A stretch of 64,000 bases of DNA from Microvirga sp. ACRRW (GTDB lineage Bacteria; Pseudomonadota; Alphaproteobacteria; Rhizobiales; Beijerinckiaceae), in NCBI RefSeq assembly GCF_022346925.1, contig NZ_JAKRNJ010000001.1:372001-436000 (forward strand), written 5' to 3'. Made by a program: the position numbers and the translations under genes. The notes below the pieces were generated by a model, which saw only the letters and a list, made by a program, of their open reading frames with translations, did no database searches and was not told the origin of the DNA. Below, piece by piece: positions 48,186-50,861 of this stretch (position 1 is the first letter of the stretch; every line of letters begins with the position of its first letter).

Positions 48186-50861
48186 TCACGAACCGTTACG
48201 CCCGACGAGGGCGAACCAGCCATCCTCGTCCATGACCTGAAGGCCAAGCTCGGCCGCTTTCGCGAGCTTCGAACCCGCGCCGGGACCGGCCACGACGATA
48301 TCCGTTTTCTTGGAAACGGACCCCGCCACCTTAGCCCCGAGCCGCTCAGCCATGGCCTTCGCCTCCTCACGGGTCATCTGCTCGAGCGAGCCCGTAAAGA
48401 CCACCGTCTTGCCGGCAACTGGAGATTCAGATGCCACCGTTTCATAGTCCTCTACATATACCGGCCGGCTATTAGGTTCATTTGAAAATGTCAGTGCATC
48501 AATCTCAGCCTTATTTCTTGGCTCCATAAAGAAATGAAGCACAGAATACAAAGCCTTCTCACCAAATCCATCTATCGAGATCACGTCCTCAAAATGTTTA
48601 GATTCCATAGACATCAAACGTGCGACGTCTGCAGATAAACTTGGCCAGCCATAATGTAACTTACGCGCATACTCAGATTGGGAAACATCGTAGTCTAATC
48701 GAGTAGCGAGATCGCTTAGCAGGCTGCCCCATAAACGATCTAACTGCTCTTCGATTTCAGAAATTGCATCATATGCTTTTTTGGATGAGGAGAAGTGTTC
48801 GAAAAACTTCTCTCGATTCTTTTCAGAAAATCTCTCTATCCTTGCCAGGCCTATCTCCCAATCATGCATGTTAGGAAGCTGGGAATTCTCACGTTTGAAG
48901 CGATGCATGTGCTCAATCAAGCGTCTGGCAATAATTGGCCCCACACCTTCTATGTAACGCAGCTTAGCTAGATTAACGCTTTCATAGTTGCTCTTCTCAT
49001 GGAAAATATCGAAGAGCTCCTTAAGTTTTTCAGGGTCAGTGAGATCAAGTTTGCCCCCGAAGGCTGAACGAGCTTCATTTCCCCACAATTGAAGAACGAA
49101 CGATACGCCCTCATTCATATAGTCATAGAAATTACTATAAGTATGAAAGTGTCTAGCTAGAAGCTTTGCGCTTGCCTCTCCAACATCAGGTATGCCCAGA
49201 GCATAGATAAAGCGATTAAGCGATATCGAGCGCTTTGCATTGATAGCGGCAAATAAATTACCGACACTTAGGCTTCCCCAGCCTTCTCGATTCTCTAGAC
49301 GAGAAAGCCCCTGACGATTGCGGTGTTCAAGAGTGAAGATATCATGGGGAAGCCTGACTAAACCGATTTCGAATAGCTCATCAATGCGCTGTTCACCCAT
49401 GCCTTCGATATCGAAGGCGTTGCGCGAGACGAAATGCTTCAGGCGTTCGCGCGCCTGCGCCGGGCAGATGAGGCCGCCGGTGCAGCGGCGTACCGCATCC
49501 TCCTTGCCCGTGCGCGGATTGACCTCGCGCACCGCATGGCTGCCGCAGGCCGGGCATTGCGTGGGAAATTCATAAGGCTTTGCATCAGAGGGGCGCTTGT
49601 CCAGCACTACATCGAGCACCTTCGGAATCACATCGCCTGCGCGGTTGATGATGACCGTATCGCCGATGCGGATATCGACGCCCTCGCGGATCTTTTCTCC
49701 GTTGCCGCCAATACCCTTGATGTAATCCTCGTTGTGCAACGTCGCATTCGACACGACGACGCCGCCGACGGTGACAGGGCGCAGTCGCGCAATGGGATTG
49801 AGCGAGCCCGTGCGGCCCACATTGATCTCGATGCCTTCCAACACCGTCACCGCTTTCTGCGCGGGGAATTTGTGCGCCAACGCCCAACGGGGCGAACGCG
49901 ACACGAAGCCGAGGCGCTGTTGCAGGTTCAAATCATCGATTTTGTAGACGACACCGTCGATGTCGTAGCCTAGATTGGCGCGATCCGTCTCGATGGCATG
50001 ATAATGCTCGAGCATCTCCGCAACGCTGGAGCAACGGCGCGTGAGCTTATTGACCTTGAAGCCGAAGGCGCGCAGGGCATCCATCATGCCGTGTTGCGTA
50101 TCGGCGGGCATGGCGCTCACCTCGCCCCACGCATAGGCGAAGAAACAGAGCGGACGCGATTTCGTAATGTTTGGATCGAGCTGGCGCAGGCTGCCGGCAG
50201 CAGCATTGCGCGGATTGGCGAAGAGCGGCTTGCCTGCCGCCTCCTGCCGCTCATTGATGGCTGCGAAATCCTTGTGCGAGAGATAAACCTCGCCGCGCAC
50301 CTCGAACACCTCGGGAATGTTCGATCCTTTCAGCACATGCGGAATGTCTTCGACCGTGCGCGCATTCGCCGTCACGTCCTCGCCTTCCGCGCCATCGCCG
50401 CGCGTGGCCGCCGAGACGAGCTTGCCCTTCTCATAGCGGATACTGAGCGAGAGGCCGTCGATCTTGGGCTCAGCCGTGAAAATCAACTGCGCATCCGCCT
50501 TCCATTGTAGGAAGCGGCGGATGCGCTCGACGAACTCTTCGACCTCCTCGTCTGCGAACCCGTTCGAGAGGGACAGCATCGGTATGCGGTGCTTGATCTT
50601 GGCAAACTTTTCCGATGCTCTGGAGCCGACCTTCTGCGTCAGGCTTTCCGAGGTCTTGAGCTCGGGAAACATCCCCTCCAGCGCCTCGTAGCGCTTGCGC
50701 AGGGTGTCGTATTCCGCGTCCGAGACCGTGGGCGCATCTTCCTCGTAATAGCGCCGGTCATGCTCCGCGATTTCAGCCCCCAGAGCCTCGTGCTCGGCAC
50801 GCGCTTCGGAGAGGTTCAATTGGTCGACAGGCTTCAGGGAAGGTGCGTTTTGTGCGGACAT
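48186..50861 (-). CDS. ligA: NAD-dependent DNA ligase, long form with atypical central segment
   Basis: 891 residues, against about 670-720 in most bacteria. Domain Ia ([22 protein letters not shown]), adenylation with K133 in [14 protein letters not shown] fold ([16 protein letters not shown]), Cys4 zinc finger (CPACGSH...[12 protein letters not shown]), helix-hairpin-helix motifs ([55 protein letters not shown]) and a C-terminal BRCT ([19 protein letters not shown]). All catalytic parts are present. Positions about 48425-49390 (residues about 490-812, the HhH region) are AT-rich with TTA, ATA and AGA codons, unlike both flanks, and include about 100 extra residues between the third and fourth HhH motifs. 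This suggests a recombined or acquired segment. Confidence 0.92.
48425..49390 (-). other. AT-rich, codon-atypical segment inside ligA
   Basis: Base composition drops sharply (many lines near 40% GC by eye against about 62-65% on both sides) while the ligA frame stays open. It encodes the HhH region and linker to BRCT. Boundaries are estimated from composition only. Confidence 0.75.

Follow-up and report, generated by a model that had tools for sequence, protein, structure and literature searches.

A mosaic NAD+-dependent DNA ligase gene in Microvirga sp. with a probably imported, enlarged HhH domain

In most bacteria the NAD+-dependent DNA ligase LigA is an essential enzyme, and it is an antibacterial target; mosaic alleles of housekeeping genes arising from homologous recombination are a general phenomenon. 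PMC10504179 describes HhH motifs that contact the two DNA strands in the minor groove and attributes closure of the clamp to contacts of the adenylation domain with the HhH domain. The LigA of the soil bacterium Microvirga sp. analysed in this work has the same domains in the same order as E. coli LigA (PDB 2owo). It differs from that enzyme by 174 extra residues between the positions matching 535 and 536, and by an AT-rich HhH domain whose ancestry appears unlike that of its own flanks. No ligA domain replacement was found in the titles and opening abstract lines covered on LigA and ligase evolution, domain exchange and M. lupini, a coverage outside which most subscription papers fall.

The ligA gene and its AT-rich block

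The window, which is the whole stretch of 64,000 nucleotides analysed, holds the only NAD+-ligase match of the Microvirga sp. genome. The Pfam matches of this gene follow the order adenylation domain, OB fold, C4 zinc finger, HhH and BRCT, with the adenylation domain PF01653 scoring 331 bits and the KxDG lysine motif present as EPKIDG, aligned to ELKLDG of E. coli. Its status as the single NAD+ ligase and the constraint on its protein suggest that the product seals nicks. Microvirga sp. and Microvirga lupini AT3.9 additionally carry a PF01068 ligase-like gene, and NAD+ LigA is therefore not necessarily the sole ligase of either. The features of the gene, all on the minus strand, are as follows.

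48186–50861, minus strand: ligA, NAD+-dependent DNA ligase, 891 codons and 891 residues (NCBIfam LigA equivalogs; Pfam adenylation, OB, Zn, HhH and BRCT)
49392–50861, minus strand: native N-terminal part, codons 1–490, with adenylation domain, OB fold, zinc finger and the start of HhH1, following the species' own clade
48426–49391, minus strand: probably imported AT-rich block, codons ~491–812 (composition, nucleotide identity, sister comparison)
49131–49373, minus strand: part of the block homologous to normal HhH1–HhH3, codons 497–577 (alignment, tree)
48615–49136, minus strand: the 174 extra residues, between HhH3 and HhH4 (alignment to E. coli LigA)
48966–49124, minus strand: first block-specific stretch, approximately codons 580–632, absent from the compared normal and HhH-duplicated LigAs
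48906–48956, minus strand: putative additional HhH motif of 17 residues, codons 636–652 (weak HHH_3 and HHH_5 matches, E 0.09 and 0.12)
48753–48842, minus strand: probable degenerate HhH3-like repeat of 30 residues, codons 674–703 (profile match to HhH-duplicated LigAs)
48582–48752, minus strand: second block-specific stretch, codons 704–760 (alignments)
48516–48581, minus strand: final HhH4 (a 23-residue region), codons 761–782, divergent and alignable to normal HhH4
48207–48425, minus strand: native BRCT domain, codons 813–885, with host-level GC and codon use

The first-pass annotation had described an AT-rich block inside ligA, and the composition of the gene bears this out. The GC content of 48425–49390 is 0.436 against 0.619 for the window, in which no 966-base stretch clear of the block falls below 0.531. 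GC3 is 0.763 over codons 1–490, 0.417 over codons 497–810 and 0.792 over codons 815–891, and the counts of TTA, ATA and AGA, the rare codons to which attention had been drawn, are 0/1/1, 7/6/4 and 0/0/0 in the same three parts. Fitting two change points to GC3 placed the borders at codons 482–488 and 815–816 among the five best fits, with a log-likelihood of −524.6 compared with −582.9 when no change point was allowed. Comparison with sister species placed the left border between codons 490 and 496 and the right border between codons 812 and 821, in agreement with the abrupt return at the BRCT domain that was originally reported. The reading frame is intact through the block and all 891 codons are free of stops, as had also been stated. 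An imperfect palindrome with 15-nt arms (87% complementary) is present at 49146–49167, inside the block near HhH3 and away from the borders. Apart from the ligA block, the GC minimum of the window lies at positions 1–2500, with values of 0.54–0.56 per 1000 bases.

Ancestry and distribution of the block

The block was present in two of 48 Microvirga genomes, those of Microvirga sp. (G000) and M. lupini (G016), both of which match the query straight through. The remaining 46 have the normal layout, in which query residues ~580–750 are missing and the two matches lie at most ~45 bases from each other, and the 28 LigAs read among them are all 718–721 residues long. The present LigA thus exceeds its sister enzymes by ~170 residues and the E. 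coli chain 2owo (671 residues) by 220, which accounts for both ends of the 170–220 extra residues first estimated. At the nucleotide level, ligA of Microvirga sp. is 93–98% identical to L004 before the block, 46–66% over codons 501–580 and 85–90% in the BRCT region, and M. lupini compared with L021 gives 91–96%, 46–66% and 93–96%, respectively.

Conflicting histories for the parts of the gene were found in trees built from 45 chosen LigA rows, using codons 20–480 for the N-terminal part and codons 492–577 (86 columns) for the block. In the N-terminal tree the window row fell in a starred set of three with L004 and L005, and M. lupini in a different starred set of nine. In the block tree the two carriers were sisters with support of 100/99, as two rows on one long stem of 0.38. 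In AU tests, for which the groups were picked after inspection of the alignment (clade sets from the N-terminal tree and the carrier pair from the block), a clade of both carriers was rejected for the N-terminal part (p 7.3e-7, a cost of 125 log units), and retention of Microvirga sp. or M. lupini in its own clade was rejected for the block (p 5.1e-4 and 1.1e-4, respectively). The BRCT domain is too conserved for placing either carrier. These conflicting trees, the absence of the block from 46 of the 48 genus genomes and the sharp nucleotide borders uphold the proposal made in the first-pass annotation that recombination at the level of a domain gave rise to a mosaic ligase.

The shared border places in the two Microvirga species are the start of the HhH domain and the start of the BRCT domain. 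At codons 488–490, five codons before the block, M. lupini reads LGL like L021, L019 and L026. Microvirga sp. reads MGE there, which is common in the genus, and only the left marker of M. lupini is therefore clade-specific. At codon 821 Microvirga sp. has GTC like L004–L006 and M. lupini has GTG like L021, L019 and L026. Because the flank markers follow each species' own relatives on the right, and those of M. lupini also on the left, the same borders are present in two backgrounds. Between the two carriers pS is 0.46 in the N-terminal part, 0.84 (saturated) in the block and 0.48 in the BRCT region; the normal pair L004 and L021 gives 0.40, 0.39 and 0.41 for the same regions. The block lineages thus diverged well ahead of the host lineages. 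This favours two separate acquisitions, and Microvirga sp. and M. lupini probably gained their blocks independently, at identical borders. A pN of 0.205 alongside saturated pS indicates that the block protein is under constraint.

Beyond the genus, the insert query matched four of 298 family genomes, strongly in the two Microvirga carriers and weakly in two with normal spacing (88–89). Among 397 order genomes there were 29 matches, comprising Microvirga sp., the Hyphomicrobiales MAG MS_R2_11 (G482; E 1.3e-16), a fragmented draft genome (G415; E 1e-4; 1250 contigs, 5% contamination) and 26 weak matches, of which the 17 read all have normal HhH3–BRCT spacing. The insert profile matched one of 385 class genomes (its own), one of 15 in the family of G482 and one of five in the family of G415, these being two other families of the order. 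A scan of an 84,980-species collection returned 206 stretches and two relatives, M. lupini and MS_R2_11, and since only two short patterns were used in it, other carriers may exist. When 142 LigA frames, with several to a genome, were scanned for GC3 change points, a likelihood ratio >30 for an internal block of low GC3 was reached only in the four carriers G482, G016, G000 and G415. Frames of L031, L017 and L028 also exceeded this ratio and were set aside, as all or most of the stretch concerned precedes the start codon.

In G482 the AT-rich stretch runs from inside HhH3 to just before BRCT, a left border unlike that of the other carriers, between flanks 73–97% identical to two species of its own genus. 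In G415 identity falls at HhH1, near the junction of EKQIE and SLIEW, and recovers at BRCT, the same place as in Microvirga within 15-codon windows. The GC of the HhH3–BRCT region and of the N-terminal part is 0.43 and 0.60 in Microvirga sp., 0.45 and 0.63 in M. lupini, 0.42 and 0.70 in G482 and 0.39 and 0.53 in G415. The HhH3–BRCT spacing of the four carriers is 248–261 residues (260 in this LigA), compared with 84–92 in normal LigAs. The blocks of the other three are 64, 29 and 22% identical to that of Microvirga sp., yet all four share invariant Trp, Gly and Arg positions, including Trp 711 and Trp 739 of the second block-specific stretch, which suggests that the block is a folded unit. Two LigA matches each were found in G482 and G415, with best E values of 8.4e-37 and 5.6e-31 against 8.5e-71 to 2.8e-81 in sister species; with best values this weak, no second, normal LigA was seen in either. 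A PF01068 (ATP-dependent) ligase was present in five of seven genomes examined (G000, G016, G028, G032 and G500) and absent from G482 and G415.

The search for a donor gene gave no source in plasmids, phages, viral contigs or sampled genomes. By tblastn, 114 plasmid and 62 phage records had a match to the 327-residue block. None of these matches spanned more than 80% of the block, and the widest among the 30 listed for each collection reached 65% coverage at 24% identity. Four plasmid records with matches extending past HhH3 were discounted as donors because the ligA genes annotated on them encode 682–720 residues. When only the insert was used as query, neither the plasmid nor the phage collection yielded a match up to E 1. 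The sole match among viral contigs scanned for block relatives, in L156 (25% identity, E 1e-3), was rejected as an ORF with no LigA feature seen that shares FHEKSNYE, eight residues of the search pattern. The phage or plasmid donor initially suggested was thus not recovered from these collections. Nor did a distant alphaproteobacterium, the other donor put forward, find support, as the HhH1–2 part is closest to Microvirga (66–71% identity in five genomes besides its own) and neighbouring genera (64–69%), with 144 of 149 family genomes matched.

The extra residues and exchange of LigA modules

Two or more LigA matches were found in 41 of the 397 order genomes, and 30 of these were read. The HhH3–BRCT spacing was 161–177 residues in 18, 111–145 in nine and normal or fragmentary in three. 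The nine of intermediate spacing, between normal and duplicated (L067, L071, L073, L080–L084 and L086), have a GC of 0.63–0.77 in this part. All 13 LigAs inspected among the 18 contain an additional HhH4-like and HhH3-like unit. A profile of the four insert sequences aligned to eight duplicated-HhH LigAs over 70 columns in hhalign, a modest match with a pairwise E of 2.5e-6, a probability of 88.8 and 11% identity, by which a second HhH4-like/HhH3-like unit lies between HhH3 and HhH4 in this LigA. The extra part therefore looks like an expanded form of the duplicated-HhH3–4 arrangement with two added stretches of ~50 residues. With a spacing of 260 residues, outside the 161–177 range, this LigA is an expanded relative and not a plain member of the duplicated group. 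The first-pass annotation had correctly placed an unfamiliar region between HhH 3 and 4, and its size has been revised from ~100 to 174 residues. The 21-residue sequence singled out there does lie in the extra part, and it is probably a degenerate HhH3 repeat preceded by another HhH motif.

Against solved structures the insert profile gave only two matches, with E values of 0.33 and 0.71, taken as chance. The insert matched nothing in Pfam below E 0.01 except the HHH_2 model, nothing in PHROGs below E 0.015 and nothing in PADLOC up to E 1. Its weak Pfam matches to AIPR_N (E 0.038) and Peptidase_M13_N (E 0.033) fall well short of the cut-offs of these models and were disregarded. A Pfam search of the insert with a limit of E 5 returned no intein model, and an intein was rejected on this ground and because the adjoining HhH regions are replaced by divergent homologues.

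Two further genomes, G500 and G653, from two genera in which both kinds of LigA occur, have LigAs with N-terminal parts 78–85% and 83–87% identical to the normal LigAs of their own genus. Their HhH and BRCT parts are 32–35%, 29–35% and 67–68% identical to the same LigAs in G500, and 42–50%, 36–38% and 61–64% in G653, with the switch near HhH1 in both (20-codon windows). The N-terminal part of G500 is uneven, the first 60 residues being 96–100% identical to G590 and identity lower afterwards. As judged from these sequences, exchange of LigA modules is wider than the AT-rich block.

Directly after the mosaic ligA of G500 lies an exonuclease gene (L123 4944–6053; L090 338–1447), DnaQ-like by sequence, whose last part is a BRCT segment matching the LigA BRCT of G590, a member of the same genus, at 96.8% identity over 218 bases; this tail is apparently a captured end of the old ligA. 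Homologues of the exonuclease (38–43% identity) adjoin ligA in L069, L070, L074, L078 and L088, which with L090 places it beside ligA in six of the 18 loci of 161–177-residue spacing, within the flanks examined. Others are present in L149, where LigA has a single full match, and on a plasmid of Rhizobium (L152), ~1.6 kb past ligA.

Proposed origin, alternatives and known systems

The evidence argues strongly for a ligA whose HhH domain was replaced through homologous recombination, and for a product that would be a functional ligase with a larger DNA clamp. In this mechanism crossovers would have occurred in or beside two short conserved stretches, one of 11 residues at HhH1 and one of 11 residues at BRCT, exchanging the native HhH domain for that of a divergent, AT-rich and extra-long LigA lineage. 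M. lupini would have separately gained a deeply diverged relative of the block at the same borders, and genomes of the other two families carry versions that are more divergent still. Recombination through conserved flanking stretches would be the simplest domain swap that keeps the reading frame. The clamp of the presumably active product would be enlarged by duplication of HhH3–4 and by the two block-specific stretches. Folded onto the clamp beside HhH4, the enlarged HhH may extend the grip on DNA or add a site for a partner.

A wider reading, held only tentatively, is that the clamp of LigA, the essential replicative ligase, is an exchangeable allelic cassette in Hyphomicrobiales, with AT-rich long versions residing in an unsampled, probably mobile pool, with repeated recombination of these into ligA at recurring borders, and with escape from a LigA-attacking agent or a new partner as the benefit. 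A related proposal, which is possible but doubtful, adds diversifying selection, in which the clamp module is repeatedly exchanged because a phage product or competitor toxin targets it and the AT-rich pool is carried on mobile elements. This is consistent with four carriers of which three have the same left border and all have the right border at BRCT (G415 and G482 at 15-codon resolution), with the genus-like N-terminal parts and foreign HhH–BRCT halves of the G500 and G653 LigAs, and with blocks that are deeply diverged and consistently low in GC. However, plasmid, phage, viral-contig and PADLOC searches gave no inhibitor or mobile source, conserved anchors alone could explain the shared borders, and pN/pS points to constraint and not to positive selection.

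Trans-species polymorphism, or vertical descent, is improbable. Here a long allele present in the Microvirga ancestor would have been lost from most lineages with one pair of borders kept, as the identical borders of the two carriers and the branching of the HhH1–2 part near Microvirga would allow, and the divergence would also be compatible with a polymorphism maintained over a long time while its flanks recombined. Against it, a pS of 0.84 in the block compared with 0.46–0.48 in the flanks makes the blocks older than the host split, and many losses would be needed as both carriers are nested among clades with normal LigA. It is very unlikely that a mobile element (an intein, intron or integrating element) was inserted in ligA. 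The insert is AT-rich, in frame and patchy in distribution as such an element might be, but HhH1–2 and HhH4 are replaced by homologues and not merely interrupted, neither the window nor L003 has repeats linking one border with the other, and the stop-free insert found, apart from HHH_2, nothing in Pfam below E 0.01, in PHROGs below E 0.015 or in PADLOC up to E 1. Least credible of all is AT-biased accelerated evolution of the native HhH in place under relaxed constraint, for although the HhH1–2 part is still 66–71% identical to Microvirga, the borders are sharp, a homologous insertion is common to two non-sister species with homologues in other families, and pN is 0.205 with saturated pS.

Under replacement by homologous recombination, the preferred explanation, the DNA-gripping domain of LigA would have been exchanged as a unit between lineages, with a length change of ~170 residues, more than once and at the same borders. 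If the exchange was adaptive, the clamp faces some selective agent, of which the literature covered on LigA and ligase evolution and domain exchange gave no trace. Closely related Microvirga, with normal alleles in some and long ones in others, offer a direct test of this. Trees of ligA can mix two histories.

Besides canonical LigA, two known systems compare most closely with this gene. Duplicated-HhH3–4 LigAs, for example those of genus g9 in the same family, resemble the block in having extra HhH4-like and HhH3-like units between HhH3 and HhH4. They differ in their spacing of 161–177 residues compared with 248–261 in the block LigAs, in a GC content that in 16 of 18 is from 0.03 below to 0.07 above that of the N-terminal part (L090 and L087 being lower), and in the absence of both block-specific stretches from the six compared. 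Mosaic housekeeping alleles share with this ligA native flanks, a foreign middle and crossovers at conserved stretches. Unlike in the usual mosaic alleles, the whole DNA-binding domain of an essential enzyme appears here to have changed in length and architecture, more than once and at the same borders.
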